Assembly (NCBI GenBank): GCA_036271555.1
Contig: DATBAK010000061.1
Coordinates: forward strand, 1-37,114
Origin: Acidimicrobiia bacterium
GTDB lineage: Bacteria; Actinomycetota; Acidimicrobiia; IMCC26256; PALSA-610
DNA: 37,114 nucleotides
Reading direction: 5' to 3'
The position numbers and the translations under genes were made by a program. The notes beneath the pieces are model-generated. The model was not told the DNA's origin, did no database searches, and saw only the letters and a program-made list of their open reading frames with translations. Below, in pieces: positions 5,406 through 25,706 of this stretch. Within the stretch, counting starts at the first letter, position 1. Every line of letters begins with the position of its first letter.

Positions 5406-5414
5406 GGCACCTCC

Positions 5415-6116: not shown

Positions 6117-6142
6117 TGCGGTCGCCAGGTGCCGCGCCGACG

Positions 6143-6191: not shown

Positions 6192-6356
6192 GGCGGCCGC
6201 CCGCGGGAACGGGCGGGTCGCTCTGCGGCCCGGCCGACGTGGGGCCTGAGGCGTCGAGGAGGGCGAAGCTTGCGAGCCCGACCAGAAGGCACAGGTTGAC
6301 GCCCGTGTCAGGTTGTTGCGAAAGTCGCGGGCTCACGGTGCGACGCGGGGGGACCG

Positions 6357-7933: not shown

Positions 7934-8913
7934 CCGACGGATCGAGACTGCGGTACGGCGCGTTCGTGCCGCAGGGATGGAAGCTGGAGTACACGGGGTT
8001 CGACGCGGCCTCGGCTTGGGAGCGGTCGAAGGAGATCGCCGTCCTCGCCGAGCGCGTCGGCTACGACCACCTGTGGGTCTACGACCACGTCGAGACGGTG
8101 CCGCGGCGCGAGCCCACTCACATGTTCGAGGCGTTCACGATGCTCGCCGCGATCGCGCAGCACACGCGCACGATCCGGCTCGGGCAGATGGTCACGTGCG
8201 CGTCGTACCGCAACGCCGGTCTCCTCGCGAAGGAAGCCGCGTGCGTCGACGTGTACTCGGGTGGCCGGCTGATCCTCGGAATCGGGGCGGGTTGGTACGA
8301 GCGCGAGTACCAGGCGTACGGCTATCCGTTCCTGCGCGCGGGGGAGCGCCTCGCGGTGCTCGACGAGACGCTCGACGTCGTGAAGGCGCTCTGGACCGAC
8401 GAGACCGTCACCTACGCGGGCAAGTACCTCCAGTTCGACGGCGCGTACTGCGACCCCAAGCCGATCCAGCAGCTCCCGCCGATCTGGGTCGGTGGTGGCG
8501 GCGAGAAGAAGACGCTGCGCATCGCGGCCAAGCATGCGGACGCGACGAACTGGCAGACGGGTCTCGACAACTTCGTGCACAAGTCGCAGGTGCTGCGCGA
8601 GCACTGTGATGCGGTCGGCCGCGACTTCGACACCGTCGTCCGCACGCACGGTCCCGACTGCCGGCTGTTCGACACCGAGGCCGACCTGCGCGCGTGGGTC
8701 GACTCGCCGGGCGGCGGATCGCTCTGGGGTCGCGGCGACCCCGACGAGTACGTCCGCGACAATCTCGTCGGCACGCCCGACATGGTCGCGGAGAAGGTGC
8801 AGGGTTACGTCGACGCGGGCTGCGCGGAGTTCGTGCTCTGGTTCCGCGATTACCCGTCGTCCGAGAGCCTCGAGCGCTTCATGTCCGAGGTCGCTCCGAA
8901 GGTGAGCGGGTGA
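7930..8913 (+). CDS. LLM-class F420-dependent oxidoreductase
   Basis: This 327-residue luciferase-like protein begins LRYGAFVPQGWKLEYTGF and has HLWVYDHVETVP, RLGQMVTCASYRNAGLLAKEAA and GGRLILGIGAGWYEREY. These place it in a common actinobacterial F420-dependent group, distinct from the enzyme at 2282-3199. GTG 7930 overlaps the VOC stop (GTGA), and its own stop overlaps the GTG of the glycosyltransferase gene at 8910. It therefore connects the catabolic genes with the glycan genes. Substrate and pathway are unknown. Confidence 0.88.
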   Translation: MTDGSRLRYGAFVPQGWKLEYTGFDAASAWERSKEIAVLAERVGYDHLWVYDHVETVPRREPTHMFEAFTMLAAIAQHTRTIRLGQMVTCASYRNAGLLAKEAACVDVYSGGRLILGIGAGWYEREYQAYGYPFLRAGERLAVLDETLDVVKALWTDETVTYAGKYLQFDGAYCDPKPIQQLPPIWVGGGGEKKTLRIAAKHADATNWQTGLDNFVHKSQVLREHCDAVGRDFDTVVRTHGPDCRLFDTEADLRAWVDSPGGGSLWGRGDPDEYVRDNLVGTPDMVAEKVQGYVDAGCAEFVLWFRDYPSSESLERFMSEVAPKVSG

Positions 8914-10460
8914 CGACGACCGACGTCAGAACCGAGCCGCCGATCGAGGAGCCGGCGCCGTCGCGCGCGCACTGGGCCGTGGTGATCGGCATCGCGATCG
9001 TGGTGGTCGCCGGGGTCGGGTTCCGCTTCGCGACGCGGTCGCACATGTGGCTCGACGAGGCGCTCAGCGTCAACATCGCGCACTTGTCGACGCGCCACAT
9101 CTTCACGTGGCTCAAGCACGACGGCGCGCCGCCGCTCTACTACGTCGTCCTGCACTACTGGATGAAGGTCTTCGGCTCGTCCAATCTCGGCGCGCGCTCG
9201 CTCTCGGGGGTGGCAACGGTCGCGTCGTTCCCGCTCGCGTACTTCTGCGGCAAGCGGATCGCGGGCCGTGCGATGGGCTGGATCGCGGTCGTCGTCCTCA
9301 GCGTCAACGCGTACGTGGTCATCTACGCGACGACCGCGCGCATGTACGCGCTCGAGCAGTTCCTCGTCTTCGCGGGCATCCTCGCGGTGCGCCGCGCGTT
9401 CGAGAAGCCCACGGTCGGGCGTGTCGCGCTCGTCGGCTTTCTCGTCGCGGTGCTCATCTACACGCAGTACTGGGGCTTCTACATCACGGCCGCGTTGGTG
9501 CTGCTCCTGCTGGGCACGTTCCGATACGCGCCCGAGCACGCCGACGCGGCGAAGCGTTTGCTCGTCTCGGTGTTCGTCGGGTTGCTCACGTTCATCCCGT
9601 GGCTCCCGACGTTCCTCTACCAGGCGAAGCACACGGGCACGCCGTGGGGGAAGTCGATCCTCCCCGCCGCGCCGATCGGCATGACGTTCCAGGACTTCGC
9701 CGGCGGTCAGCAGCAAGAAGGCTGGATCCTGCTCATCGGGTTCATCGTGCTGCTGTTCCTCGGCGCGTTCGGGATCGCGTCACGCGCGGGACACATCGAC
9801 GTCGACCTGAAAGGGCAGCCCACCATCCGCTGGGAGGCCGCGATCGGCGCCGCGACGCTCGTGATCGGGACGACCCTCACGTATCTCAGCCACAACGCCT
9901 TCCAGTCGCGCTACGCGTCGGTGGTCGTGCCGTTCTTCGTGCTCGTGATCGCGCGCGGAATCCTGTGCTTCCGCGACGCGCGCGTCCGCGCGCTGTTCAT
10001 CGTCGCGATCGTCGTGCTCGGTTGGGTCGGCGACGCCCGCAACTTCCGCGTCGAGCGCACCTCGGCCACGAAGGTCGCGCCGATCATCAACCGCGAGGGC
10101 CAGCCCGGCGACGTCGTGCTCTACTGCCCCGACCAGGTCGGGCCCGCGGTTCACCGGCTGCTGCGCAAGGGCTTCGACGAGATGACGTACCCGCGGCTGC
10201 TCAAGCCCGCGCTCGTCGACTGGGTCGATTACAAGGCGGTGCTGCGGCGGCACAAGCCCGCCGACGTGGCGCAGCAGGTGCTCGACCTCGCCGGCGATCA
10301 CACCATCTGGTACGTGTCGGCGCCCGGCTACATGACCCACAAGCACTCGTGCGACGAGGTCTCGACCACGCTCGCGCAGTCGCGCAAGAAGGTCCTGCGG
10401 GTGCAATCGGATCCGAACGCGTTCGAGAAGCAGGGATTGCAAGAGTTCCCGGGCAGTTGA
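8910..10460 (+). CDS. Polytopic membrane glycosyltransferase, GT39/ArnT-like (GT-C fold)
   Basis: This 516-residue integral membrane protein has a first membrane segment at about 22-38 and then MWLDEALS, with the Asp49-Glu50 pair of the first extracytoplasmic loop that GT-C enzymes use for catalysis. GAPPLYYVVLHYWMKVFG matches the next conserved part of the PMT_2/ArnT group. About ten more hydrophobic segments follow. The soluble C-terminal domain (about 390-516) contains YCPDQVGPAVHRLL. It would use a polyprenyl-phosphate sugar and act on the outer face of the membrane. The start GTG 8910 overlaps the previous stop by 4 bp. Donor and acceptor cannot be read from sequence. Confidence 0.82.
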   Translation: MTTTDVRTEPPIEEPAPSRAHWAVVIGIAIVVVAGVGFRFATRSHMWLDEALSVNIAHLSTRHIFTWLKHDGAPPLYYVVLHYWMKVFGSSNLGARSLSGVATVASFPLAYFCGKRIAGRAMGWIAVVVLSVNAYVVIYATTARMYALEQFLVFAGILAVRRAFEKPTVGRVALVGFLVAVLIYTQYWGFYITAALVLLLLGTFRYAPEHADAAKRLLVSVFVGLLTFIPWLPTFLYQAKHTGTPWGKSILPAAPIGMTFQDFAGGQQQEGWILLIGFIVLLFLGAFGIASRAGHIDVDLKGQPTIRWEAAIGAATLVIGTTLTYLSHNAFQSRYASVVVPFFVLVIARGILCFRDARVRALFIVAIVVLGWVGDARNFRVERTSATKVAPIINREGQPGDVVLYCPDQVGPAVHRLLRKGFDEMTYPRLLKPALVDWVDYKAVLRRHKPADVAQQVLDLAGDHTIWYVSAPGYMTHKHSCDEVSTTLAQSRKKVLRVQSDPNAFEKQGLQEFPGS

Positions 10461-11605: not shown

Positions 11606-11622
11606 TCGGGGAGTGCCTGACC

Positions 11623-11628
11623 TACTCT
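11623..11628 (+). promoter_or_regulatory. -10 box TACTCT, leaderless type
   Basis: TACTCT ends 8 nt before ATG 11637 in the 31-bp gap after the PIG-V-like gene. No ribosome binding site is visible between box and start. Confidence 0.4.
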
Positions 11629-11636
11629 GCCCGCTG

Positions 11637-13049
11637 ATGGAGGCGGCGCCGGAGAGGCAGAGCCCGGTGCGGGGCCGATGGACCTTCCGTCGCTTGCTCT
11701 TCGCCGCCGTGCTCCTCGCGCTCGTCGTGCGCGTGTCGTACGTGGCGGGCGCGAAGAAGGGCCCGTGCGAGATCTCCACGAAGCCCGTGAAGTGGATCCC
11801 GACCGAGTGCGCGGTCGGCGACCAGCAGTTCTACAACGGCGAGGCGAACCGGCTCGCGCAGGGCGACGGCTTCGTGGTGTGGGGCATCCCGCGGGGCCAG
11901 CACGCACCGCCCGCGGCCGACCATCCGCCGCTCACCGTCGTGGTGCTCGCGCCGATGGCCTGGCTGTCGATGCACGCGTTCGGCTTCGTGCACGACCCGA
12001 GCAACGTCACCGAGGAGCGGTACTACATGGCCCTCCTCGGCACGCTCCTCGTGCTGCTGATCGGCCTGCTCGGACGCAAGGTCGGTGGTGCGCGCGTCGG
12101 CATCGCCGCCGCGGTGATCGCCGCGCTCTATCCGAACCTCTGGATGAGCGACGGTCTGATCATGTCGGAGACGATCACCGGCATCGTCGTCGTCCTCGCG
12201 TTATTGCTCGCATACGACCTGCGCGATCGACCGCGCCCGCGCACCGCGATCGCGTGCGGCGCGATGTGCGGGCTCGTGCTCCTCGGGCGCGCGGAGCTCG
12301 GACTGTTCATCCCGCTGCTGCTCGTGCCCGCGGCGCTCGGCGGGCGCGGGATCACCCGCCGGCAGGGTGTGGGGCTCGCCGCGCTCGCGCTGGTGGCGAC
12401 GACCGTCGTGGTCGCACCGTGGGTCGCGTACAACATGTCGCGCTTCAAGGATCCGGTGTTCGTATCGACGAACGACGGCCTCGCGCTCGCGGGTTCGAAC
12501 TGCGACCACGTGTACTACGGCACCGCGATCGGGCTCACGTACCTCGAACCGCCGTGCATCGACGTGCCGGAGCCCAAGGGCCTCGATCAATCGCAGGTGT
12601 CGTCGCTGTACCGCAAGCGGGCGTTCACCTACATGGGCAATCACGAGCAGCAGCTGCCGCTCGTCGTGCTCGCGCGCATCGGCCGCACGTGGAGCGTGTA
12701 CCGGCCGGCCGACATGCTCTACTTCAACCTCGCCGAGGGCCGCGAGCACTTCGCGATCCTCGCGGGCATCGTCGCCTTCTACCCGCTCGCCGCGCTCGCG
12801 CTCGCGGGCGGGTGGTTCCTCCGTCGCCGGCGGCAGGGGATGCTGTGGCCGCTGGTCGTGCCCGCGATCGCGGCGACGGTCGGTGTCGCGGTGACCTACG
12901 GGCAGACGCGCTTCCGTGCCGCCGCGGAACCTTCCATCGTGATCCTCGCGGCCGTCGCAGGGGTCACGTTCTGGCAGCACTTCCGCCCGAACCCGGCGCG
13001 TGCCGACGACGAGGACGACGATGCGGTCGCGGAGCCCGCGCTCACCTGA
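11637..13049 (+). CDS. GT39-like membrane glycosyltransferase
   Basis: This 470-residue polytopic protein is a clear paralogue of the gene at 33622-34962. Shared blocks are GD-x3-Y near the first loop (GDQQFYNGEANRLAQGDGF), HPPLTVVVLAP, YPNLWMSDGLIMSETI, RAELGLFIPLL, APWVAYNMSRF and an extracytoplasmic Cys motif SNCDHVYYG with a later PPC. The layout is that of ArnT/PMT_2 GT-C enzymes that take a sugar from a polyprenyl phosphate. The C-terminus is acidic (DDEDDD). ATG 11637 follows a TACTCT box directly. The 3' end overlaps the convergent lipoprotein gene by 8 bp. Confidence 0.8.
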   Translation: MEAAPERQSPVRGRWTFRRLLFAAVLLALVVRVSYVAGAKKGPCEISTKPVKWIPTECAVGDQQFYNGEANRLAQGDGFVVWGIPRGQHAPPAADHPPLTVVVLAPMAWLSMHAFGFVHDPSNVTEERYYMALLGTLLVLLIGLLGRKVGGARVGIAAAVIAALYPNLWMSDGLIMSETITGIVVVLALLLAYDLRDRPRPRTAIACGAMCGLVLLGRAELGLFIPLLLVPAALGGRGITRRQGVGLAALALVATTVVVAPWVAYNMSRFKDPVFVSTNDGLALAGSNCDHVYYGTAIGLTYLEPPCIDVPEPKGLDQSQVSSLYRKRAFTYMGNHEQQLPLVVLARIGRTWSVYRPADMLYFNLAEGREHFAILAGIVAFYPLAALALAGGWFLRRRRQGMLWPLVVPAIAATVGVAVTYGQTRFRAAAEPSIVILAAVAGVTFWQHFRPNPARADDEDDDAVAEPALT

Positions 13050-13751: not shown

Positions 13752-13809
13752 GGGCGTGGGGGCCCCGGTCGTTCTACGCCCCGTGGCCGGCCGACCGATC
13801 AGGAAGACG

Positions 13810-15438
13810 ATGGCAGCCGATCACGCCGCACCCGACGCCTCCGCGACCGCGGACCGCAGCCGCGCCGGCGCGCGTCCGGCGCCCCAGGTCGTCGTCATCG
13901 GCGCGGGTCCCGCCGGCCTCACCGCGGCCTTCGAGCTGATGAAGGCGGGCCACACCTGCACGATCCTCGAGAGCGACTCGGTCGTCGGCGGCATCAGCCG
14001 TACGGTCGAGCGCGACGGCTGGCGCTTCGACATCGGCGGCCACCGCTTCTTCACGAAGGTGAAGCCGGTCGACGACCTCTGGTTCGAGATCCTCGGCACC
14101 GACGAGTTCCTGCGCCGGCCCCGGCTCAGCCACATCTACTACCAGGGCAAGCTCTACGACTACCCGATCAAGCCGCTCAACGCGCTGCGCAACCTCGGTG
14201 TCGTCGAGGCCGTGCGCTGCATGGCGTCGTACGCGTGGGTGCGCATCAAGCCGCCGAAGAACCGCGACAAGCTCGAGGGCTACATCGCGAGCCACTACGG
14301 CTGGCGCCTCTATCGACACTTCTTCAAGACGTACAACGAGAAGGTGTGGGGGATCCCCGCGTCGGAGCTGTCGGCCGACTTCGGCGCGCAGCGCATCAAG
14401 AACATGTCGATCGTCGCCGCGGTGTGGGAGCCGCTGCGCGCGCGGATGATGGGCTCGCGCGACAAGAGCAAGCAGGTCACGAGCCTCATCGAGGAGTTCA
14501 ACTACCCGAAGTACGGGCCGGGTCAGATGTGGGAGACCGCGGCGGAGAAGGTCACGGCGGCGGGTGCGGTGCTCCACTTCCGTCAGAAGGTCGTGCGCAT
14601 CCTGCACCGCGACGGGCGCGCCTACGCGGTGGTCGCGCGCAACAAGGACACCGGCGTCGAGTCGACGTATCCGTGCTCGCACGTGGTCTCGTCGATGCCG
14701 ATGAGCGCGCTGCTGCGCGCGATGGACCCGCCGGTCGACGACGTCGTGCGCGCCGCGGCCGACGGCCTCGGCTATCGCGACTTCATGACGGTCGCGCTCG
14801 TCGTGCCGCTCGAGTACTCGTTCCCCGACACGTGGATCTACATCCACGATCCCGAGGTCGAGGTCGGGCGGGTGCAGAACTTCGGCTCCTGGTCGCCGTA
14901 CATGGTGAAGGAAGGCCGGACCTGCCTCGGGCTCGAGTTCTGGGTGCAGGAGGGCGACGCGATGTGGTCGAAGTCCGACGACGAGCTGATCGCGCAGGCC
15001 AAGCGCGAGCTCGAGCACCTCGGACTCTGCGACGCGTCGAAGGTCGAGGCCGGCTACGTCGTGCGCGTGCCGAAGGCGTATCCGGTGTACGACGAGACCT
15101 ACCAGCAGAACGTCGAGGTGCTGCGGCACTGGATCGCGGCGCACGCGCCGAACGTCTTCCCGACCGGTCGCAACGGCATGCACCGCTACAACAATCAGGA
15201 CCACTCGATGCTCACCGCGATGCTGTCGGTCGAGAACATCCTCACCGGCACCGAGCACGACGTGTGGACCGTGAACGTCGACGCGGAGTACCACGAAGAG
15301 CACGCCGACGAGGCGAAGAACGGCTCGACGGGTCGCGACGCGCCGATCCTGCCGCGGGCCGCGCTCGACGCCGCCGCCGCGCAGCGGGCCCAGCGGCACG
15401 CCGCGAGCAGACCCTCCGAGACGTCGTCCCGCCCGTAG
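13810..15438 (+). CDS. FAD-dependent oxidoreductase, UDP-galactopyranose mutase / amine-oxidase-like
   Basis: This 542-residue flavoprotein has a disordered Ala-rich N-terminus of about 25 residues and then the FAD-binding motif VVVIGAGPAG (Gly31, 33, 36). DGWRFDIGGHRFFTK follows, as in UDP-galactopyranose-mutase-like enzymes and protoporphyrinogen-oxidase relatives. YNEKVWGIPASELSADFGAQRI is the conserved block of a bacterial subgroup often found in polysaccharide loci. GMHRYNNQDHSMLTAM lies near the C-terminal FAD contact. Function may be a sugar-nucleotide mutase or a redox step, and the sequence does not decide. AGGAAG at 13801-13806 supports ATG 13810. Its stop codon TAG is also the start of the -10 box of the next gene. 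Confidence 0.82.
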   Translation: MAADHAAPDASATADRSRAGARPAPQVVVIGAGPAGLTAAFELMKAGHTCTILESDSVVGGISRTVERDGWRFDIGGHRFFTKVKPVDDLWFEILGTDEFLRRPRLSHIYYQGKLYDYPIKPLNALRNLGVVEAVRCMASYAWVRIKPPKNRDKLEGYIASHYGWRLYRHFFKTYNEKVWGIPASELSADFGAQRIKNMSIVAAVWEPLRARMMGSRDKSKQVTSLIEEFNYPKYGPGQMWETAAEKVTAAGAVLHFRQKVVRILHRDGRAYAVVARNKDTGVESTYPCSHVVSSMPMSALLRAMDPPVDDVVRAAADGLGYRDFMTVALVVPLEYSFPDTWIYIHDPEVEVGRVQNFGSWSPYMVKEGRTCLGLEFWVQEGDAMWSKSDDELIAQAKRELEHLGLCDASKVEAGYVVRVPKAYPVYDETYQQNVEVLRHWIAAHAPNVFPTGRNGMHRYNNQDHSMLTAMLSVENILTGTEHDVWTVNVDAEYHEEHADEAKNGSTGRDAPILPRAALDAAAAQRAQRHAASRPSETSSRP

Positions 15439-15448: not shown

Positions 15449-16750
15449 GTGAGTGACGGCGCCGACGGCCGCGTGAAGACGGGCGCTCACTCCCATGCGG
15501 CCGAAGGCGGGAGCGAGAACGCGCAGGTCGCGGCGCCCGCGCGTCCGCATTACCCGTGCTTCGACGGCCTGCGGACGATCGCGGTGCTCAGCGCGATCAT
15601 GACGCACGTCGGGTTCGTCACCGGCGCGACCGAGCAGTCGCACCACCTCGGCGAGTACCTCGCGCACCTCGAGATCGGCCCCGCGCTGTTCTTCCTGATC
15701 TCGGGGTTCCTGCTGTACCGCCCGTACATCACCGCGCACGTCGGCGATCGCGCGCCGATGCGCGCGGTCCCGTTCTGGTGGCGCCGCGCGCTCCGTATCT
15801 TCCCCGCGTACTGGCTCGCGCTCACCGCGCTGATCGTCGCGTTCGGGCTGCCGGTGCACGGGGCGCGCGACGTCGTCACGTACTACGGCCTCGTCCAGAT
15901 CTACGACACGCACCGGTTCCTCGGTGGCATCCCGCAGGCGTGGACGCTCTGCACCGAGGTGAGCTTCTACGCGTTCCTTCCCGCGTACGCGTGGGTGCTC
16001 GGGCGCGTGGTGAGGGGCCGCGAGGGGCGCACGCGACTGCGCGTCGAGGCGCTCGGCGCGGCCGCGCTGATCGCGCTCTGCTACGGGTACCGGACGATCC
16101 TCTTCGCGATCGACGGCCGGCACTCGGTCGGTCGCATCGCCGTGCACTGGCTGCCGGGTTACCTCGACGTGTTCGGTCTCGGCATGGCCCTCGCGGTCGC
16201 GAGCGTGTGGATCGCGATGCACGGCTCGAACGCGATCGTCGACTGGATCGGGCGCGTCAGCTGGCTGTGGTGGATCCTCGCCGCGGTCTGCTACTGGCTC
16301 GTGGTCGCGCACCTCGACCTGCCCCGCAGCCCGCAACCAGGGAACACGCCGATCGGCTGGCAGGCCGACGCGCAGCAGATCCTGCAGTCGCTGTTCGCGC
16401 TGTTCGTGACGTTGCCGGCCGTGTTCGGCGCGCAGGACCGCGGACTCGTGCGCCGCTTCCTTCAGTGGCGCCCGATCGCGTACACGGGCCTCGTGTCGTA
16501 CGGCGTCTACCTCTGGCACGAGGGCTGGCTCGACAAGTGGATGCAGTGGACGCATCGGCCGAACGTGCTGCAGTTCAGCGCCACCGTGCACCTCGACCGC
16601 ACCACGTACCCGCTGATCCTCGGGCTGACGGTGTTGTCGAGCGTCGCGGTCGCGAGCCTGAGCTACCACTTCGTCGAGCGGCCGGTGCTCGCGCTGAAGG
16701 ACCGCATGCCGCGCCTCGGCCTCGGTCGCCCCCGGCCGGCGCGCGCGTGA
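15449..16750 (+). CDS. Acyltransferase-3 family membrane O-acyltransferase (copy 1 of a tandem set)
   Basis: This 433-residue protein has about ten membrane segments. YPCFDGLRTIAVLSAIMTH carries the conserved Arg42 and catalytic-type His53. FFLISGFLLYRPY, RALRIFPAYWLAL, WTLCTEVSFYAFLP and SYGVYLWHEGWL follow, and together they define the OafA/NodX acyltransferase-3 family. Such enzymes move acetyl or other acyl groups across the membrane onto sugar hydroxyls of surface glycans. No SGNH domain is fused. A soluble N-terminus of about 30 residues precedes the fold. GTG 15449 fits the leaderless box. The stop overlaps the start of copy 2 (GTGA, 16747-16750). Confidence 0.9.
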   Translation: MSDGADGRVKTGAHSHAAEGGSENAQVAAPARPHYPCFDGLRTIAVLSAIMTHVGFVTGATEQSHHLGEYLAHLEIGPALFFLISGFLLYRPYITAHVGDRAPMRAVPFWWRRALRIFPAYWLALTALIVAFGLPVHGARDVVTYYGLVQIYDTHRFLGGIPQAWTLCTEVSFYAFLPAYAWVLGRVVRGREGRTRLRVEALGAAALIALCYGYRTILFAIDGRHSVGRIAVHWLPGYLDVFGLGMALAVASVWIAMHGSNAIVDWIGRVSWLWWILAAVCYWLVVAHLDLPRSPQPGNTPIGWQADAQQILQSLFALFVTLPAVFGAQDRGLVRRFLQWRPIAYTGLVSYGVYLWHEGWLDKWMQWTHRPNVLQFSATVHLDRTTYPLILGLTVLSSVAVASLSYHFVERPVLALKDRMPRLGLGRPRPARA

Positions 16751-18033
16751 AGCAAGCGGACACGGCGCCGACGACCGCGACCGTCGCCGGTGTCGACACG
16801 ACTCGGGCGGGGCGCGCCTTCGACTTCCCGTGCTTCGACGGTCTGCGCGCGATCGCGGTGATGAGCGCGATGCTCGAGCACATCGGCTTCGTGAGCGGCG
16901 CCGAGTTCTCGCACCACGAGTGGTTCGCGCCGTTGATCGCGCGGCTCGAGATCGGACCCGCGATCTTCTTCATGATCTCGGGCTTCCTGCTCTACCGCGC
17001 CTTCTGCGCGGCCGCGTTCGCGGGGCGGCAGCCGACCGGGCCGCGGGTCTTCTTCCGCCGTCGGATCCTGCGCATCTTTCCGGCCTACTGGCTCGCGCTC
17101 ACCGCGACCCTCCTGTTCGGGCACGCGACGACGGTCGCCGTGAGCGCGAACGGCGGCGGCTTCTCGGCGTTCACCTTCCCGCAGCTCGTGTCGCTCTACT
17201 CGTTGACGCAGATCTACCGCGCGAGCTGGTTCCCCGCGGGCATGTCGCAGAGTTGGACGCTCGCGGTCGAGATCACCTTCTACCTGATGCTGCCCGCGTA
17301 CGCCCTGCTCATGCGCCGGCTCGGCGCGGCACGTGACCCGGACGCGCGCCTGCGCATCGAGCTCGCGGGCGTCGCGGGCCTGTACCTGGTGAGCGTGGCG
17401 TGGCGCGCGTTCGTGTTCTACGCCGGTGTCATGCCGCTCGTGTCGCAGCACTGGTTGTTCGGCTACCTCGACGTGTTCGGCTTCGGCATGGCGCTCGCCG
17501 CGATCCACGCGTGGTCGATGCATACCGGGCGCACGCTCGCGCTCTGTGAGTGGCTCGGGCGCCACGCCGACTTCTGCTTCGTCGTCGCGCTCGGGTGCTA
17601 CCTCGTCGTGGCGCTGACGCTGCGTCTCCCGCGGTTGATCGTCGAGGTGAGCGGTGGACGCGCGTACGCGCGCAACATCCTGAACGGTCTCGTCGCGCTG
17701 TTCGTGCTGCTGCCTGCGGTGTTCGGGCCGCAGGATCAGTCGTTGTTCCGCCGCTTCCTGCGGTGGCAGCCGGTGGTGTACGTCGGCATCGTGTCGTACG
17801 GCGTGTACCTCTGGCACAACGACTTCCTCGAGCAGGCGCGCATCTGGTCGCACTATCCGGTGTTCGCCGGCAACTTCGCGATGCTGCTCGTGGTCACGCT
17901 CGCGTGGAGCCTCGCGGTCGCGTCGATCAGCTACTTCTTCGTCGAGCAGCCGATCCTGCGGCGCAAGGACCAGCCGCTCTTCCGCCGGCGCCCCCGCCCC
18001 CGCAGCGGGACCGTCGCGACGAGCGCGCCATGA
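16747..18033 (+). CDS. Acyltransferase-3 family membrane O-acyltransferase (copy 2)
   Basis: This 428-residue paralogue of copy 1 has the same blocks: FPCFDGLRAIAVMSAMLEH (Arg34, His45), FFMISGFLLYRAF, RRILRIFPAYWLAL, WTLAVEITFYLMLP and SYGVYLWHNDFLEQ. Loop regions between blocks differ strongly from copy 1, for example the longer loop with HATTVAVSANGGGFSAF, so acceptor or donor specificity may differ. GTG 16747 overlaps the previous stop, and the stop overlaps ATG 18030. The C-terminus ends in a basic Arg-Pro-rich tail. Confidence 0.9.
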   Translation: MKQADTAPTTATVAGVDTTRAGRAFDFPCFDGLRAIAVMSAMLEHIGFVSGAEFSHHEWFAPLIARLEIGPAIFFMISGFLLYRAFCAAAFAGRQPTGPRVFFRRRILRIFPAYWLALTATLLFGHATTVAVSANGGGFSAFTFPQLVSLYSLTQIYRASWFPAGMSQSWTLAVEITFYLMLPAYALLMRRLGAARDPDARLRIELAGVAGLYLVSVAWRAFVFYAGVMPLVSQHWLFGYLDVFGFGMALAAIHAWSMHTGRTLALCEWLGRHADFCFVVALGCYLVVALTLRLPRLIVEVSGGRAYARNILNGLVALFVLLPAVFGPQDQSLFRRFLRWQPVVYVGIVSYGVYLWHNDFLEQARIWSHYPVFAGNFAMLLVVTLAWSLAVASISYFFVEQPILRRKDQPLFRRRPRPRSGTVATSAP

Positions 18034-19247
18034 CGGCCGCGGCCGACAATGAGCTCGTCGTCGGTGCGTCCGGCGTGCGTGATCCCGCGACGACCTTCCC
18101 GTGCTTCGACGGCCTGCGCGCGATCGCGGCGATCGTCGTGCTGCTCCACCACGCGTCGTTCTACAGCGGACAGATGTTCCACGGGCATTTCCCGAGCTAC
18201 TTCACGCACCTCGACGTCGGCGTCGCGATCTTCTTCCTGATCTCGGGCTTCCTGCTGTACCGGCCGTTCGTCGCGGCCGCGCTCGCCGGCCGCGCGGGCC
18301 CGTCGGTACGCCGCTTCTACGTCCGCCGGCTGCTGCGCATCTATCCCGCGTACTGGCTCGCGCTCGTCGGCATCATCATCTTCTTCGGTCTCAACGTGCC
18401 GGTGCGCGGCGCGCGTAGCTACGTCGAGTACTTCACGCTCACGCAGATCTACGACACGATCGGCCGCGCGCAGGGCGGCATCTCGCAGGCGTGGACGCTC
18501 GCGCTGGAGGTGAGCTTCTACGCCTTCGTGCCGCTCTACGCCGCGTGCATGATCCGGGTGCAGCGCGGCCGCGCCGCGACGACGCGCGTCGGGGTCGAGG
18601 TCGCGGGCCTCGCAGTGCTGTACGCGACGAGTCTGGGTTTCCGTGCGATCGTGTTCTCGCTCCACACCGGCCGGGTCCACGACCTCGGCATCTACTGGCT
18701 CCCCGCGAACCTCGACTACTTCGCGCTCGGCATGGGCCTCGCGCTCGGCAGCGCCTGGTTCGCGCAGCGAGGGTCGGTGCCGCGCATCGTCGAGTACCTC
18801 GGTGCGCAACCCGCGCTGTGCTGGGCGCTGGCGATCGCCTGCTTCGTGTTCATGGCGAAGGGTCTGAACCTGCCGGTCGGGCTCGCACGCGTCGACGGCA
18901 AGCGGGCGTTCGCCCGCCAGTTCCTGTACGGCGCGACGGCCTTCTTCCTCCTGTTCCCGGCGGTGTTCGGACCGCAGGACCGCGGCTTCGTGCGGCGCCT
19001 CCTGCGCTGGCCGCCGCTCGTGTACGTGGGGCTCGTGTCGTACGGCGTGTACCTCTGGCACCAGAGCTGGCTCGAGCGTGCGGTGAAGTGGAACCACCAG
19101 CCGGACTTCCGGGCGAGCTTCCCCGCGATCGTGACCGCGGGCTTCGCGCTGGCGCTGGCCACCGCGTCGGTGAGCTGGTTCGCGGTCGAGCGGCCGCTGC
19201 TGCGCCGGCGCGACCGGATCACGCGGCCGGTGGGGGCTCGGACGTGA
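18030..19247 (+). CDS. Acyltransferase-3 family membrane O-acyltransferase (copy 3)
   Basis: This 405-residue paralogue has FPCFDGLRAIAAIVVLLHH (Arg30, His40-His41), FFLISGFLLYRPFV, RRLLRIYPAYWLAL, WTLALEVSFYAFVP and SYGVYLWHQSWLERA. The double His in the first helix matches the commonest form of the family, whereas copies 1, 2 and 4 have a single His. The protein ends with a short basic tail after WFAVERPLLRRRDR. It is coupled at both ends by 4-bp overlaps, with copy 2 at 18030-18033 and copy 4 at 19244-19247. Confidence 0.9.
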   Translation: MTAAADNELVVGASGVRDPATTFPCFDGLRAIAAIVVLLHHASFYSGQMFHGHFPSYFTHLDVGVAIFFLISGFLLYRPFVAAALAGRAGPSVRRFYVRRLLRIYPAYWLALVGIIIFFGLNVPVRGARSYVEYFTLTQIYDTIGRAQGGISQAWTLALEVSFYAFVPLYAACMIRVQRGRAATTRVGVEVAGLAVLYATSLGFRAIVFSLHTGRVHDLGIYWLPANLDYFALGMGLALGSAWFAQRGSVPRIVEYLGAQPALCWALAIACFVFMAKGLNLPVGLARVDGKRAFARQFLYGATAFFLLFPAVFGPQDRGFVRRLLRWPPLVYVGLVSYGVYLWHQSWLERAVKWNHQPDFRASFPAIVTAGFALALATASVSWFAVERPLLRRRDRITRPVGART

Positions 19248-20467
19248 CCGAGGCTCGCGTGGCCGCGCGTCCGCGGTTCCCGTGCTTCGACGGGTTGCGC
19301 GCCGTGGCCGCGATGACGATCGTCGTCTTCCACATCGCGTCGCTCTTCACGGTCAACCTGAACCAGGCGCGCTACATCGGTCCCTATTTCACGCGCCTCG
19401 ACGTCGGCGTTGCCATCTTCTTCGTGATCTCGGGGTTCTTGCTGTACCGGCCGTTTGCCGCCGCGCACTTCGGCGGCTCCGCGCCCTCGCGGTGGCGCGA
19501 CTTCTGGTGGCGGCGCGCGGTGCGCATCTACCCGGCGTACTGGATCGTGCTGACCGCGGCGATCTTCCTGTTCCGCAGCGCGCACCTGCACGGCGTCGGC
19601 GACTACACGCGCCACTACGCACTCGTGCAGATCTACGTACCTGCCTACGGGCTCGCGGGCATCGTGCCGACGTGGAGCCTCGCGGTCGAGGTGAGCTTCT
19701 ACGCCGCGCTCCCGATCTACGCGGGGATCGTCGGTGTGCTCGTCGCGCGCGCCGGGCGCTCACGTGCGCTGCTCGTCGAGGCGGGCGCCGCCGCATTCCT
19801 GTACCTGTTCGGGCTGGGAGTCCGCGTCTTCCTCTTCTACAAGGACGGTGTGGGGTCGCCCTCGGCACAGTGGCTGCCGGCCGAGTGCGACCTGTTCGCG
19901 CTCGGCATCGGGCTCGCGGTGTTCAGCGCGGCGGCGTCGGCCGGGCTCGCGGCGACGGCCACGAACGGTGTCGCGCGCGCGCTCCGCTGGCTCGGCGACA
20001 ACGCGTACGCGAGCTGGCTGCTCGCGGTCGGTGCCTTCGTGCTCGTCTGCAACATCGGCCTGTCGACGAACTTCGGCGTGGAGACGGTCGACCGCAAGGT
20101 CGAGGTGGCGCACCAGATCCTCTATGGCCTCGTCGCGCTGTTCGTCGTGCTGCCGGCGGTCTTCGGCCCGCAGGATCGCGGCGTCGGTCGGCGCGTGCTC
20201 CGAAGCCGGGTCGCGACGTCGATCGGTGTCGTCTCCTACGGCATCTTCCTGTGGCACTTCGACTGGATGAACCAGCTGAGCGATTGGAAGCTCGACCGCG
20301 GCGTCCACGCGCTGCGGTTCCCGATCCTGTTCGCGCTGACGCTCGCGTTCACGCTCGTCGTCTCGTCGTTGAGCTGGTTCCTCGTCGAGCAGCCGATCCT
20401 GCGCCGAGCGTCGCGACCCCCGTGGCGCGCCGCGCGCGCCCCCGCCGCCGAAGGCGCGCGGCCGTGA
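19244..20467 (+). CDS. Acyltransferase-3 family membrane O-acyltransferase (copy 4)
   Basis: This 407-residue paralogue is the most diverged of the four. It has FPCFDGLRAVAAMTIVVFH (Arg19, His30), FFVISGFLLYRPFA, RRAVRIYPAYWIVL and WSLAVEVSFYAALP. The late motif is SYGIFLWHFDWMNQL, where the other copies have SYGVYLWH. It has the shortest N-terminal extension. GTG 19244 overlaps the stop of copy 3, and the stop overlaps GTG 20464 of the membrane protein gene, so at least five genes are translationally coupled here. Confidence 0.9.
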   Translation: MTEARVAARPRFPCFDGLRAVAAMTIVVFHIASLFTVNLNQARYIGPYFTRLDVGVAIFFVISGFLLYRPFAAAHFGGSAPSRWRDFWWRRAVRIYPAYWIVLTAAIFLFRSAHLHGVGDYTRHYALVQIYVPAYGLAGIVPTWSLAVEVSFYAALPIYAGIVGVLVARAGRSRALLVEAGAAAFLYLFGLGVRVFLFYKDGVGSPSAQWLPAECDLFALGIGLAVFSAAASAGLAATATNGVARALRWLGDNAYASWLLAVGAFVLVCNIGLSTNFGVETVDRKVEVAHQILYGLVALFVVLPAVFGPQDRGVGRRVLRSRVATSIGVVSYGIFLWHFDWMNQLSDWKLDRGVHALRFPILFALTLAFTLVVSSLSWFLVEQPILRRASRPPWRAARAPAAEGARP

Positions 20468-21861
20468 GCGTGCCGACGGCCGACGCGACCGCGACGGAGG
20501 ACGACGCCGAACCGGCCGCCGGTGCCGTGATCCCGGGCCGGATCCCGATCGCGGTCGTGTTCGCCGCGGTCGTGATGCTCTACGCGATCTGGGCCGCGTT
20601 CACCGGGACGGGCCGCTTCCGCGCGGTTCGGGCCGGCTTCGGCGTCGACTCCGCGTACGACATGCGTGGCGCGAGCGCGCCGGTCTGGAGCCTGCGCTTC
20701 CTCGCGGCGCCCGACGCGGCCCCGTTCCTCTTCCTCCTGCTCGCCAAGGTCTGCCTGCGCAACCTGCGCGCGATCGTTCTCGTCGAGAGCGCGATCGCGG
20801 TGGGGTGCTGGCTGTTCCTCGCGCGCGCGGTCGCAGAACGCTTGCGCCACCCCGCCGTGCGCACCGGCGCGTTCGTCGCGCTGCTGCTGGTCGCGTTGAG
20901 CCCGCCGGTGTCGATGTGGAACGTCTTCGTCGCGACCGAGTCGTTGTCGCTCTCGCTGCTCGTGCTCGCGACGGGACTCTTCATCCGCATGACGGGCGGC
21001 CGCTCCGCGCGCCGCGACTACGTCGGCCTCGTCGTCGTGCTCGCGCTGCTCGCGTGCACGCGCGACTCCTACTCGACCGTCGTGCTCGTCGTGGCGGTGG
21101 TCGCGATCGTCGTCGGCATCGTGCGGCGGTCGGTGCGCGCTCGGGCCGCGGTGCTCGCGGGCGTGTGCATCGTTGCCGCGGGGCTCAACATCGCGGGATC
21201 GAACCACTCGGGCCGTTGGTTCTCGCCGCTCGACGAGACGGTCACGGTCCGGCTGCTCGGTTCGCACGAGGCCACGCGCTACTTGCTCGACCACGGCCTG
21301 CCGCTGTCGCCGCAGGTACGCGCGCTCCACCAGCCCTACGCGCAGGCGTTGACCGGTGATCGTGTGACCTTCGACCCCGCGTTCGCGGCGTACCGGGCGT
21401 GGCTCAACTCCAAGGGGCGGAGCACCTACGCGTCGTTCCTCTTGACGCACCCCGCCTCCGACATCTCAGGCCCGTTCGCCGATCGGCAGCGGCTCCTGCG
21501 CCCCGCGATCCGTGGGTACGCGCACACGTACTACGTCGACGGCGGACCGGTCTTCCGCGTGATCGGGTCGATCGGCATGCCGTCGTCGCAGGGCCTCGTC
21601 GAGATCTGGATCGTCGCCGCGTTGCTCGCGGCGATCGCGCTCGCGCGCCGTCGTCGGAACCGCGTGTTGCTCGTCACCGTCGCGCTGTCGACGCTCCTCC
21701 TCGTCGTGCACTACCTCGTCGATTGGCACGGCGACGCGCTCGAGCTCGACCGTCACGCGATCGCCGCCGCAGTCCAGCTGCGCGTCGTGCTGTGGATCGT
21801 CACCGCGCTCGTCGTCGACGAGATCGCGACCCGTCGCAGTGTCCGCGCCGGCGGCGGCTGA
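20464..21861 (+). CDS. Polytopic membrane protein, possibly a GT-C-like glycosyltransferase
   Basis: This 465-residue protein has about nine to ten hydrophobic segments and a roughly 30-residue acidic N-terminus. I do not recognise a named family. Features resembling GT-C proteins are an extracytoplasmic loop after the first helix (GVDSAYDMRGASAPVW) and a helix with NVFVATESLSLSLLVLATGL. That helix recalls the SETITGIVVVLALL segment of the GT39-like gene at 11637. A large loop (about 230-345) has DETVTVRLLGSHEATRYLLD. The GTGA overlap with acyltransferase copy 4 places it in the same operon, so a role in building or exporting the acylated glycan is likely but unproven. Confidence 0.7.
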   Translation: MSVPTADATATEDDAEPAAGAVIPGRIPIAVVFAAVVMLYAIWAAFTGTGRFRAVRAGFGVDSAYDMRGASAPVWSLRFLAAPDAAPFLFLLLAKVCLRNLRAIVLVESAIAVGCWLFLARAVAERLRHPAVRTGAFVALLLVALSPPVSMWNVFVATESLSLSLLVLATGLFIRMTGGRSARRDYVGLVVVLALLACTRDSYSTVVLVVAVVAIVVGIVRRSVRARAAVLAGVCIVAAGLNIAGSNHSGRWFSPLDETVTVRLLGSHEATRYLLDHGLPLSPQVRALHQPYAQALTGDRVTFDPAFAAYRAWLNSKGRSTYASFLLTHPASDISGPFADRQRLLRPAIRGYAHTYYVDGGPVFRVIGSIGMPSSQGLVEIWIVAALLAAIALARRRRNRVLLVTVALSTLLLVVHYLVDWHGDALELDRHAIAAAVQLRVVLWIVTALVVDEIATRRSVRAGGG

Positions 21862-21882: not shown

Positions 21883-21888
21883 GTCGTG

Positions 21889-23754
21889 GTGCGTGACGGG
21901 GGCGGGCCGACGATTCCGCACGTCGCGGCGCTCGACGGCGCGCGCGGTGTCGCGGTCGCCGGGGTCGTGGTCTTCCACGCCGGCCACCTCAAGGGTGGTT
22001 ATCTCGGCGTCGACTTCTTCTTCGTCCTGTCGGGCTACCTCATCACGTCGCTGCTGCTCGCCGAGGCAACGACCACGGGCGCGATCGGACTCGGCGGCTT
22101 CTGGTCGCGCCGCGCGCGGCGACTGCTTCCCGCACTCGCGTTGCTCCTCGTCGGCGTGCTCGCGTACTGCGTGCTGTTCGCACACTCCGACGAGCTCCGC
22201 CAGATCCGTGGCGATGCGTTCGCGACCCTCGGGTACGTCGCCAACTGGCGCCAGGTGTTCTCGCACCAGAACTACTTCGCGCTGTTCCGGTCGCCGTCGC
22301 CCCTGAACCACACGTGGAGCCTCGCGATCGAAGAGCAGTTCTACGTGGTGTGGCCGCTCGTGTTCTCGGTTCTCCTCTGGCGCTTCCGCGCTCGCACTCC
22401 GGTCGCGGTGCTCGTGACCTCGCTCGTGCTGGCCGCGGCCTCGAGCGTGCTGATGTTCGAGCTGTACTCACCCACGAGCACGACGCGCGCGTACTACGGC
22501 ACCGACACGCGCGCCGCCGCGATCTTGTTCGGTGCGGTGCTCGCCGCGTGGCGGAGCCTGCGCGGGCCGACGGCGATCCGCGCGCGCCGCGTCGCGCTCG
22601 AGCTGGTCGGGCTCACGGGTGCTGCCGTGCTGGCCGTCGCGTGGGTCGCACTCGACGGTCAGTCGCGAACGCTGTACCGGGGTGGCTTCCTCCTCTGCGG
22701 GCTCGCGGCGACGGCGGTCATCGCGGCGGCGACCCATCCGCAACGCGGTCCGATCGCGCGCGTGCTGGAGCAGCGTCCGCTCGTCGGGCTCGGACTCATC
22801 AGCTACGGCGTGTACCTGTACCACTGGCCGATCGACATCGTCGTCGACCGCGAGCGCATGGGCTTCGGCGGCTGGCCGCTCGTCCTCTTCCAGATCGCGG
22901 TGACGCTGGCGGTGTCGATCGCGTCGTTCCGCTTCGTCGAGCGGCCGATCCGTCGGGGCGCGATCCGCGCGCCGCAGTGGCGCACGTTCACACCGGTGAT
23001 CGCGGGCGGGCTGGTGCTCGCGACGTTCGCGGCGACCGCGGCGGCAGTTGAGGTCGTGGTGCCTGCGGTTGGCAAGCACCCGGTCACCAACGCGCGCCGC
23101 GCCGCGCAGAAGGCACCGGTCGGAGCAACGCGGGTGCTGTTGGTCGGAAACTCGGTGGCGTTCACGCTCGCGGACGGCTTCGGGAGTCTCGCTACGAAGG
23201 ACGGCCTTGCAATCTTCAACGCGGCCAAACCCGCGTGTGCGTTCCCGCCACAACTCGCCGACCGCATGATTCAGACGCGCAACGGACTTGTTCGCGCGAT
23301 TCCGTGCGATCCGCCGTGGGAAGCGGGAGTCGTGAAGGCCTACCGGCCCAACGTGGTCTTCTGGATTACTGCGAACCCCGGTGGCATCGGAGCGAAGTAT
23401 CACGGTCGGCAGGTTCTCCCGTGCTCCGCGACATACGACGATCTGTTCGTCGACTCGCTTCGCCAAGAGGTGACGACACTTCGGTCAACAGGCGCGAAGG
23501 TCGTCGTTGTGACGACCGCCACCACGATGACATTCGCGCTCGTCGACGCGCGGCAGACCGCGTGTGACAACGCGCTCCGACGCCAGGTCGCGAGCGAGAC
23601 CGGCGCGACCCTCGCCGACCTCGCGGCGTTCGTCTGCCCGGGTGGCACGTGTCGTGCGTTCGACCACGGCGTCAAGCTGCGGCCCGACGGCCTGCACTAC
23701 ACCGGTCCCGCGTCGGAGATCGTGGCGCGCTGGCTGCTCGCGCACTCGGGTTGA
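21889..23754 (+). CDS. OafA-like O-acyltransferase: acyltransferase-3 plus SGNH domain (copy A)
   Basis: This 621-residue protein has an acyltransferase-3 domain at about 10-350: AALDGARGVAVAGVVVFH with Arg19 and His30, GVDFFFVLSGYLITSLLL, HTWSLAIEEQFYVVWPL and SYGVYLYHWPID. A linking membrane helix leads to an extracytoplasmic SGNH domain at about 415-620. This is the architecture of OafA, where the SGNH part completes acyl transfer to the glycan. The SGNH nucleophile motif reads GNSVA (Asn421, Ser422) instead of the usual GDS. The terminal DGLH supplies Asp and His. Several Cys residues (PACAFP, IPCDP, LPCS, ACDN, VCPGGTC) are shared with copies B and C and probably form disulfides. Confidence 0.9.
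   Translation: MRDGGGPTIPHVAALDGARGVAVAGVVVFHAGHLKGGYLGVDFFFVLSGYLITSLLLAEATTTGAIGLGGFWSRRARRLLPALALLLVGVLAYCVLFAHSDELRQIRGDAFATLGYVANWRQVFSHQNYFALFRSPSPLNHTWSLAIEEQFYVVWPLVFSVLLWRFRARTPVAVLVTSLVLAAASSVLMFELYSPTSTTRAYYGTDTRAAAILFGAVLAAWRSLRGPTAIRARRVALELVGLTGAAVLAVAWVALDGQSRTLYRGGFLLCGLAATAVIAAATHPQRGPIARVLEQRPLVGLGLISYGVYLYHWPIDIVVDRERMGFGGWPLVLFQIAVTLAVSIASFRFVERPIRRGAIRAPQWRTFTPVIAGGLVLATFAATAAAVEVVVPAVGKHPVTNARRAAQKAPVGATRVLLVGNSVAFTLADGFGSLATKDGLAIFNAAKPACAFPPQLADRMIQTRNGLVRAIPCDPPWEAGVVKAYRPNVVFWITANPGGIGAKYHGRQVLPCSATYDDLFVDSLRQEVTTLRSTGAKVVVVTTATTMTFALVDARQTACDNALRRQVASETGATLADLAAFVCPGGTCRAFDHGVKLRPDGLHYTGPASEIVARWLLAHSG
22309..22365 (+). repeat. Arm of an inverted repeat formed by paralogous genes
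   Basis: This 57-bp segment of copy A, coding for HTWSLAIEEQFYVVWPLVF, matches the reverse complement of 25151-25207 in copy B with a single mismatch by eye. A third, slightly less similar version lies at 27138-27186 in copy C. The similarity is in the most conserved part of the acyltransferase domain. Confidence 0.7.
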
Positions 23755-23758
23755 CGCG

Positions 23759-25633
23759 CTACTTCACCTGATCGAGCAGCCACGACGCGACGAGTCGCCC
23801 GCCCGCGTTCTCGAAGTGCTCGCCGTCTTTGCGCAACGTCACGCCGTGCAACTTCTCGACGCATTGTCCGCCGGGACAGATGTAGCCCATGAGGTCGATC
23901 AACTGCACGTGCATCGCCGACGCGACCACGCGCCGGTAGTTGTTCTCGCAGTCGGTCGGCTTGTCCTCCTCGGCGAAGAGGTAGCGCGGGTACGGCTCGG
24001 TCGTCATGACGATCTTCGTCTTCGGCCAGCCCATGACCTTGAACGCCTGCCGCAGGCTGTTCTCGTAGAGCGTGGCGTACGCGGTCGAGCACGTGTCGAT
24101 CCACTGGCCGTTGTAGAGCACGGAGTCCGCGGGGTTGCCGGTGAGCCAGAAGACGACGGCGGGCTTGAACTTCTTCACCGCGCGCCCCTCCCACAGCGGG
24201 TCGCACGCGAACGTCTTCTTGTCGAGGTGCTGGCCGTTCGCGCTGTGATAGCGCGCCCGTTTCATCGGGGGCGGGAAACCGCAGCCCTGGACGCCGGCGC
24301 TGAACACCGCGATCGGCGGGTCGCGCTTCACCTGCTTCATCGCCTTCCCGAGGAAGTACGCGACCGAGTCGCCGACGACCATGACCCGTTCCGCGCCCGG
24401 CGGCGCGTTCGCGTACGCGACCTCGGCCGCGAGCGTCGGGTGACGGAGGCCGGGCACCGTCGACGGCAGACCGTTGGCGGTGACCGCGAACATTACGACG
24501 ACGAGCACGAGCGCGGTCGCGGGTACGAAGCGGCGCCACTCGACGGCCGACCACGCGCCGTGCCGGATGGGCTGTTCGACGAACCGGTAGCTCGCGATCG
24601 AGATCCCGAGCGTCACCGCGATCTGGAAGGTCACGAGCGGCCAACCCGAGAAGCCCATCTCCTTCGAGTCGAGCGCGACGTCGATCGGCCAGTGGTACAG
24701 GTAGACGCCGTAGCTGATGAGCCCGAGCCCGACGAGGGGTGTGAACGAGAAGGCGCGCGCGATCGGACCCGGCTGCGGATGCACGACGGCCGCGATGATG
24801 ATCGTCGCCGCGATGCCGCAGAGCAGGAACCCGCCCTGGTACAGCGTCGCCGACTGACCGTCGAGTCGGGTCCACGCGATCGCGAGGCCGATCACCGACA
24901 CGATCGCGAGCCCCTCGAGGATGTTCCGGCGCGTGCGGCTCGTCGTCGGGCCCTTGATCGCGAGCCACGCCGCCAGCGCGGCGCCGAACAGGATCGCGGC
25001 GGCGCGCGTGTCGGTGCCGTAGTACAAGCGATCCGTGTCGCTCGCCGAGTAGAGGACGATCATCAACGTGCTCGACACCGCCGCGAGCGCGAGCGACGTG
25101 ACCAGCACCGCCTTCGGCGTCGCGCGCTTGAACCGCGCGAGCAGCGCGACGAACACGAGCGGCCACACGACGTAGAACTGCTCTTCGATCGCGAGGCTCC
25201 ACGTGTGCGTGAGCGGCGACGGGCTCGCGAACAGCGCGAAGTAGCTCTGGTGCGAGAAGATCTGATGCCAGTTCGCGACGTAGGCCATCGTCGCCCACGC
25301 GTCGCCGCGGATGCCGAAGAGCGCGGTGCGATCGCCGAACAGCCAGGCGTACAGCGCGACGCCGAACAGCATGACGGCGAGCGCGGGGAGCAGGCGTCGC
25401 GCCCGGCGCGACCAGAACCCACCGAGGCCGACGCTGCCGCGCTTCGTCGACTCCGTGAGCAGGAGCGACGTGATCAGGAAGCCCGAGAGCGTGAAGAAGA
25501 AGTCGACGCCGAGATAACCGCCGAGGAGGTGGCCGGCATGGAAGAGGAGGACGCCCGCGACTGCGAGGCCTCGGGCGCCGTCGAGCGCCGAGACCCGAGG
25601 AAGCGTCGGCCCCCGCCGTCCCTCGTCCCGCAC
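23759..25633 (-). CDS. OafA-like O-acyltransferase: acyltransferase-3 plus SGNH domain (copy B)
   Basis: This 624-residue paralogue of copy A has VSALDGARGLAVAGVLLFH (Arg21, His32), GVDFFFTLSGFLITSLLL, HTWSLAIEEQFYVVWPL and SYGVYLYHWPIDVALDS. The SGNH domain has a complete VVGDSVA motif (Asp422, Ser423), a GNP element (LTGNPADS) that could supply the oxyanion Asn, and DGEH near the end. GTG 25633 is supported by a TAGGCT box 6 nt upstream and by the matching N-terminus RD-x-G of copy A. The gene is tail-to-tail with copy A, with only 4 bp between the stop codons. Confidence 0.9.
   Translation of the reverse strand: MRDEGRRGPTLPRVSALDGARGLAVAGVLLFHAGHLLGGYLGVDFFFTLSGFLITSLLLTESTKRGSVGLGGFWSRRARRLLPALAVMLFGVALYAWLFGDRTALFGIRGDAWATMAYVANWHQIFSHQSYFALFASPSPLTHTWSLAIEEQFYVVWPLVFVALLARFKRATPKAVLVTSLALAAVSSTLMIVLYSASDTDRLYYGTDTRAAAILFGAALAAWLAIKGPTTSRTRRNILEGLAIVSVIGLAIAWTRLDGQSATLYQGGFLLCGIAATIIIAAVVHPQPGPIARAFSFTPLVGLGLISYGVYLYHWPIDVALDSKEMGFSGWPLVTFQIAVTLGISIASYRFVEQPIRHGAWSAVEWRRFVPATALVLVVVMFAVTANGLPSTVPGLRHPTLAAEVAYANAPPGAERVMVVGDSVAYFLGKAMKQVKRDPPIAVFSAGVQGCGFPPPMKRARYHSANGQHLDKKTFACDPLWEGRAVKKFKPAVVFWLTGNPADSVLYNGQWIDTCSTAYATLYENSLRQAFKVMGWPKTKIVMTTEPYPRYLFAEEDKPTDCENNYRRVVASAMHVQLIDLMGYICPGGQCVEKLHGVTLRKDGEHFENAGGRLVASWLLDQVK
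25151..25207 (-). repeat. Second arm of the inverted repeat (copy B)
   Basis: On the minus strand this 57-bp segment differs from 22309-22365 at one base in my reading (GTC for GTG in a Val codon). Together with the segment around 22798-22836 and its counterpart near 24680-24720, it gives copies A and B several long inverted matches about 2-3 kb apart. Confidence 0.7.
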
Positions 25634-25639
25634 TGGGTC

Positions 25640-25645
25640 AGCCTA
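25640..25645 (-). promoter_or_regulatory. -10 box TAGGCT for copy B, leaderless type
   Basis: TAGGCT on minus is followed by 6 nt and GTG 25633. It lies in the 73-bp gap between copies B and C, so copy B need not depend on transcription from copy C. Confidence 0.45.
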
Positions 25646-25706
25646 CCAACGGCACCACGAGCCGAATCCGGCGCGCCACGGGCCGCGACCTGCGTCGATG
25701 CACGCG

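Follow-up and report, generated by a model that had tools for sequence, protein, structure and literature searches.

Why a bacterium should keep four genes of one acyltransferase family head to tail is the question raised by contig DATBAK010000061.1 of an Acidimicrobiia bacterium (assembly GCA_036271555.1). The window analyzed, the whole stretch of 37,114 nucleotides from positions 1 to 37,114 of the forward strand, is contig C61 of a source assembly of 4.68 Mb in 104 contigs. Of the 18 genes of the acyltransferase-3 family (AT3 family, PF01757) in this assembly, 7 are located in the window. Four of these lie in tandem at positions 15449 to 20467 and are named copies 1 to 4, or AT1 to AT4, the gene AT3 being copy 3. 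The evidence makes it moderately probable that the four copies form the acylation module of a surface-glycan locus, with the acceptor work divided among them. The layout of this array is new; the kind of enzyme is known.

All four genes are on the forward strand and encode stand-alone enzymes: AT1 (15449..16750, 433 amino acids), AT2 (16747..18033, 428 amino acids), AT3 (18030..19247, 405 amino acids) and AT4 (19244..20467, 407 amino acids). The start codon is ATG in AT3 and GTG in the others. The matches to PF01757 scored 64.5, 45.1, 84.2 and 71.3 bits, respectively, all above the Pfam cutoff of 31, and no other Pfam family was matched. A fifth gene (20464..21861, forward strand, GTG start) follows directly. 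The start codons of AT2 to AT4 and of the fifth gene sit in a 4-bp overlap that contains the stop codon of the preceding gene, namely GTGA at 16747..16750, ATGA at 18030..18033, GTGA at 19244..19247 and GTGA at 20464..20467. The G+C content at third codon positions was 0.93 to 0.95 in AT1 to AT4, which is in keeping with genuine coding frames. The copies are 43 to 49% identical to copy 1, and the core motifs and the entry motif PCFDGLR are common to all. A preliminary description of this DNA had reported four tandem paralogues with exact 4-bp overlaps, only GTGA or ATGA junctions and a shared set of core and entry motifs, all of which was borne out by the coordinates, the PF01757 matches and the family residues present in each protein.

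The array is thus presumably an operon with closely packed genes; the overlaps themselves, however, say little. The relatives used for comparison were mostly metagenome assemblies of Acidimicrobiia/Acidimicrobiales from genera other than that of the window. In their loci, the 4-bp overlap accounted for 120 of 560 same-strand junctions (21%) and was by far the commonest class; these statistics leave out the lower-GC loci L130, L132 and L084, where six-frame open reading frames were used. In the window, 8 of 22 same-strand junctions were of this type, counting the four of the array. In relatives, neighboring AT3-family genes of this sort also overlap by 4 bp in at least 12 pairs, two of the pairs being near-identical loci. 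Since this is the commonest junction of the lineage, the overlaps in the array tell nothing about stoichiometry. The Shine-Dalgarno-like sequence at the internal starts is weak, which is compatible with reinitiation after the stop codon, and reinitiation need not give equal output. The suggestion that translational coupling implies selection for equal production is therefore not supported.

The four proteins carry the residues that define the AT3 family, R-x10-H and RxxR (PMC9833829) and DxxR-x10-H, a glycine in transmembrane helix (TMH) 6 and SxxxY (PMC12423673). In copy-3 numbering, the DxxR-x10-H motif of TMH1 consists of D27, R30 and H41 in all four, the arginine and histidine being the essential residues; R30 and H41 are invariant in 100 homologues. 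R100 and R103 of the RxxR motif at the cytoplasmic end of TMH3 are likewise invariant in 100 homologues, AT1 to AT4 among them, and S72, E160, TMH6-Gly234 and E387 are present in all four copies. The TMH9 motif is SxxxY in AT1 to AT3 and SxxxF in AT4, a Tyr-to-Phe change seen in 10 of the 100 homologues. The AlphaFold2 model of copy 3, the one copy of the four that was modeled, had a mean predicted local distance difference test score (pLDDT) of 92.7 and a predicted template modeling score of 0.91. Compared with known structures, it matched nine HGSNAT entries at Z scores of 13.5 to 15.3 (15.3 for human HGSNAT), and the next, unrelated structure scored 5.0, indicating that the modeled copy 3 has the ten-helix HGSNAT/TmAT fold. 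No SGNH domain was matched in AT1 to AT4, whose 405 to 433 amino acids leave no room for one. The NCBIfam models, including the SucT equivalog NF058601, gave no match to any of the four, and a sequence search of the PDB with a four-copy profile matched nothing. The AT3-family genes in plasmid records were all distant, with 25 to 31% identity among the matches listed, and mostly from Streptomyces. Judged by their sequences, all four copies are intact.

Differences between the copies are concentrated on one side of the membrane. The topology was taken from the copy-3 model, in which the N terminus and the helix-3 end with the RxxR motif lie on the inner side and the helix-1 end with His41 on the outer side. 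In the extracytoplasmic loops, orthologues share 45% identity and paralogues of one genome 20%, whereas in the cytoplasmic loops the values are 31% and 29%, with no comparable gap. The contrast between outer and inner loops was reached by none of 10,000 site permutations and by no rotation. With one genome per genus, orthologues and paralogues shared 39% and 21%, respectively, in the outer loops and 27% and 32% in the inner loops (rotation P = 0.005). The two-copy arrays of another family pointed in the same direction (permutation P = 0.003, rotation P = 0.05). The copies had earlier been noted to differ in their loops, and it is in the extracytoplasmic loops that this holds most strongly. Outer loops that are kept within lineages and diverge between them suggest different partners outside the cell, most simply different acceptor sites. 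Because the paralogues differ most in these loops and not in the cytoplasmic ones, a division of labor on the acceptor side is favored.

The same comparison bears on whether the copies might instead transfer different acyl groups, such as acetyl, succinyl or a longer chain, to the same or a similar acceptor. AT3 enzymes use several acyl-coenzyme A (CoA) donors, according to a field review (PMC9558356), and the acyl end of the donor points towards the extracytosolic side (PMC12423673), so that outer changes could alter donor choice. However, divergence peaks in the outer loops and not in the membrane core with the donor tunnel; the helices share 42% identity in paralogues and 54% in orthologues, and this gap is narrower than the one in the outer loops. 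This explanation is decidedly improbable. Of the earlier proposal of different acyl groups or different positions on one glycan, the positions fit the loop data and the different donors are disfavored.

The history of the array was reconstructed from a tree of 39 AT3-family domains. Within the family, arrays of three copies were found in two genomes of one genus (G005 and G009, the copies of the latter split over two contigs, L132 and L164), and an array of four, two of them fused in one frame, in a genome of another genus (G010). The remaining genomes of the family have one or few members of the subfamily, mostly scattered. Copy 3 (gamma) grouped with the third copies of G010, G009 and G005 with support of 100/97, and copies 1 and 2 fell in one group (the alpha/beta clade) with the copies in first and second place in these arrays (99/96). 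Copy 4 grouped with the C-terminal domain of an AT3-AT3 fusion in G021 (locus L134) and with the second gene of L059 (98/93). These partners of copy 4 are likewise the last in their two-copy sets and come from other families, and the tree sets copy 4 apart from the fourth gene of G010. In approximately unbiased (AU) tests, a clade of all four copies was rejected (P = 0.006), as was a clade of copies 1 to 3 (P = 0.0025), while the grouping of copies 1 and 2 together was not (P = 0.337). The AU P values for naming AT1 and AT2 as alpha or beta were 0.125 and 0.137.

The orthology of the copies across genera, together with the rejection of a single clade, indicates on phylogenetic grounds that the duplications were local but old: the array arose by tandem duplication at one locus before at least three genera diverged, and its lineages have persisted ever since. 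Recent duplication of a single gene at this locus was thereby ruled out, so that of a local and recent origin only the local part stood. Assembly by transfer from distant families was ruled out as well, the four copies belonging to one Acidimicrobiia subfamily. Nor is the array a decayed oddity of one genome, as arrays occur in relatives and the four copies carry no inactivating changes.

The retention of separate lineages also bears on redundancy, that is, on whether four copies perform the same acetylation and the array merely raises capacity. All copies have the same core motifs, and in Mycobacterium abscessus, Atf1, Atf2 and two further paralogues are highly redundant on a glycopeptidolipid (PMC10400925). 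Those paralogues, however, are 53 to 79% identical (PMC10400925), whereas the copies here reach just 43 to 49% identity to copy 1. Their lineages have been kept apart across genera, and the outer loops are conserved inside each lineage but differ from one lineage to another. That alpha, beta and gamma have persisted in arrays as distinct lineages counts against pure redundancy, and this explanation is considered unlikely.

Some further loci carry related genes. The same AT3 subfamily is found in records titled Bacillota, Acidobacteriota, Bifidobacterium breve and Thermoanaerobacterales, which look misassigned; the genes in the three records titled Bifidobacterium breve (L076, L081 and L087) are of the Acidimicrobiia type, and the titles are probably wrong. 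Two loci titled Proteobacteria (L123 and L125) have two or three tandem AT3-family genes with 4-bp overlaps, so that such tandems are not confined to Acidimicrobiia. At L085:3431-4513 (the same place as L031 in G023), a subfamily member is cut by stops into two, by either decay or sequence error.

The identity of the fifth gene indicates what the array may act on. Its product of 465 amino acids had been described as an unknown membrane protein into which the last copy continues. The 4-bp overlap was confirmed, but the protein can be assigned by structure to the GT-C fold of glycosyltransferases. The model, built on an alignment of 11 homologues, had a pLDDT of 84.5. In the structure comparison (VIA), the best 50 rows were all GT-C-fold proteins at Z scores of 11.0 to 19.8, including PMT, ArnT, OST/PglB/AglB, ALG, AftA/AftB/AftD, EmbB, PimE, DPY19 and GPI-pathway proteins, and Foldseek agreed. 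The sequence matches to DUF2142 (PF09913, 21.7 bits) and to the WsfD hexose transferase (NF051875, 20.1 bits) were below the cutoffs of 30.1 and 80, respectively. In GT-C enzymes, the first helix is followed by an extracytoplasmic loop that carries an acidic catalytic residue. Asp62, in the predicted first extracytoplasmic loop after the transmembrane helix at residues 26 to 47, is invariant in the 11 homologues and is a candidate for this residue by alignment. The modeled protein is a probable polyprenyl-phosphate-sugar-dependent glycosyltransferase acting at the outer face, with a substrate deduced from the fold class.

The occurrence of this gene follows that of the longer arrays. Homologues were found in 6 of 58 genomes of the order. 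Among the 14 genomes of the family, only the window's own (G000), G005, G009 and G010 have one, and these are the genomes with arrays of at least three copies. In G005 and G009 the homologue immediately follows the array, and in G010 a few genes lie in between. Weaker homologues were found in two genomes of one other family. The window's genome also encodes a second, distant homologue (30% identity) elsewhere (G000:C72:18898-20097, L174).

Fusions in relatives link the same classes of enzyme. Two AT3-family domains in one frame were detected with Pfam in two different families of the order (L134:8191-10620 and L129:9983-12418), uniting genes that are separate neighbors elsewhere. An AT3-family domain lies N-terminal to PMT_2, a GT-C domain, in L129:3986-6589, L129:16585-19155, L130:5512-7902 and L062:8854-11418, and the same arrangement in L025:1501-4206 was just below the Pfam cutoff. 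As domain architectures, these fusions link AT3 enzymes of the array group with one another as well as with GT-C enzymes. The AT3 review names fusions to SGNH and racemase domains, and AT3-AT3 fusions are unmentioned in the parts consulted (PMC9558356). In addition, an AT3-family domain is joined to a sulfatase-family domain in L131:8586-11891, which suggests that acylation is linked with the chemistry of phospho or sulfo groups on glycans. Taken together with the outer-loop pattern, the GT-C gene and the AT3-AT3 and AT3-GT-C fusions lead to the conclusion that the array probably decorates a glycan under construction by GT-C enzymes at the outer face.

Coupling and fusions could also serve the assembly of a hetero-oligomer of AT3-family proteins and the GT-C enzyme, which would be compatible with divided acceptor work. 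The AT3-AT3 fusions in L134 and L129 join neighbors in arrays, AT3-PMT_2 fusions exist, and every junction in the array is of the 4-bp type. On the other hand, fusion of neighboring genes can be neutral and 4-bp overlaps are common, and such a complex is doubtful. More speculatively, and with similarly little confidence, AT3 enzymes of different acceptor specificity might associate with one another and with the GT-C enzyme in a modular decorating assembly that coordinates acylation and sugar addition on one growing glycan at the outer face, the fusions being frozen contacts.

Under the favored division of acceptor work, each enzyme would draw an acyl group through its ten-helix domain from acyl-CoA in the cytosol, as expected from the mechanism of the AT3 family, in which acyl-CoA is bound on the cytosolic side and its acyl group is handed over at the outer face (PMC12423673). 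On the outer side of the membrane, the group would be placed on an exported glycan that is probably linked to a polyprenyl carrier or nascent. With the CoA-handling core kept and the outer loops diverged, each copy would most likely acylate its own sugar or position on a common glycan, so that one type of donor would serve different sites. Adding the sugars would fall to the GT-C enzyme next to the array and to the further GT-C and GT2 enzymes of the locus. In this model, we infer operon expression, the acceptor, the acyl group and the order of action. Several observations weigh against it. The loop test comes from few genomes and a predicted topology, and low identity makes some loop alignments uncertain. 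Besides the choice of acceptor, contacts with partners or the choice of acyl chain might underlie the divergence of the outer loops. Where AT1 and AT2 belong inside the alpha/beta clade is weakly supported (83/49), and the AU test rejects none of several placements. The four M. abscessus acetyltransferase paralogues, largely redundant on one glycolipid (PMC10400925), are also a precedent to the contrary.

The surroundings of the array are those of a glycan locus. A flavin adenine dinucleotide-dependent oxidoreductase of the PRK07208 family (13756..15438, forward strand, start possibly at 13810; NF005548, 747 bits, cutoff 389) ends 10 bp upstream of AT1, and genes of this type stand directly upstream of AT3-family genes in L129, L130, L132, L134 and L059. 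This oxidoreductase upstream and the GT-C gene downstream make up a conserved unit around the array that was absent from the preliminary description, as were the three AT3-SGNH genes after it. The first of these (21886..23754, forward strand; PF01757, 90 bits; PF19040, 53 bits) begins 24 bp after the GT-C gene and is probably in the same operon as the array. It is followed by a convergent AT3-SGNH-type gene (23759..25633) and another (25707..27605), both on the reverse strand, with PF01757 matches and an SGNH-like tail recognized by eye. With these three adjoining genes at 21886 to 27605, one forward and two reverse, seven AT3-family genes lie in 12 kb. Block I of the SGNH part reads GNS in the first and GDS in the other two. 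The NCBIfam SucT model matched only the SGNH-type copies in the window, far below its cutoff.

Two PMT_2-type GT-C glycosyltransferase genes (8904..10460 and 11613..13049, forward strand, both PF13231) lie further upstream, and a GT2 glycosyltransferase gene (29168..29992, forward strand, PF00535) lies downstream; homologues of the latter follow two-copy arrays in L059, L134, L149 and L150. In relatives, PMT-type genes recur further upstream of arrays, and GT2 and PMT_2 genes recur downstream of two-copy sets. Upstream of the GT-C genes, positions 3681 to 8913 encode an amidohydrolase, a KduI/IolB-like protein, a zinc alcohol dehydrogenase, a small protein and a luciferase-like monooxygenase, a set that recurs beside a PMT gene in L151 and partly in L160.

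The array shares with the stand-alone TmAT enzymes WbaK, Oac, WecH and TmaT the fold, the DxxR-x10-H, RxxR, TMH6-Gly and SxxxY motifs, ten helices and the lack of an SGNH domain, and with WbaK also the glycan-locus context. The stand-alone AT3 cases that have been reviewed are single genes, whereas the array has four diverged, overlapping copies and a GT-C gene. The mycobacterial Atf1, Atf2 and their paralogues are similar in that several ten-helix acyltransferases act on one actinobacterial surface glycolipid, but they form no overlapping array and are more alike and largely redundant (PMC10400925). In Mycobacterium tuberculosis, SucT-dependent succinyl groups are needed for mannose capping of lipoarabinomannan by the decaprenyl phosphomannose-dependent CapA (PMC10503756). 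SucT, which succinylates lipoarabinomannan and arabinogalactan, is thus a precedent for the interplay of acylation and glycosylation on an exported glycan, although it is a single gene. The AT3 paralogues OatA and OatB of L. plantarum acetylate two different sugars of one polymer, as the review reports (PMC9558356), and offer a precedent for paralogues that divide sites among themselves as proposed here. Unlike the array, they are SGNH fused and act on peptidoglycan, and the review describes no tandem array for them.

The choice of acceptor by stand-alone AT3 enzymes is named as an open question in the field review (PMC9558356). Orthology-resolved paralogues with a shared donor-side core and differing, conserved outer loops provide material to test which part of the enzyme reads the acceptor. 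Likewise, the natural AT3-AT3 and AT3-GT-C fusions provide material to test whether the enzymes of acylation and those of glycosylation work together in a complex. As for the biology of uncultured Acidimicrobiia, the array suggests a surface glycan with dense acylation.

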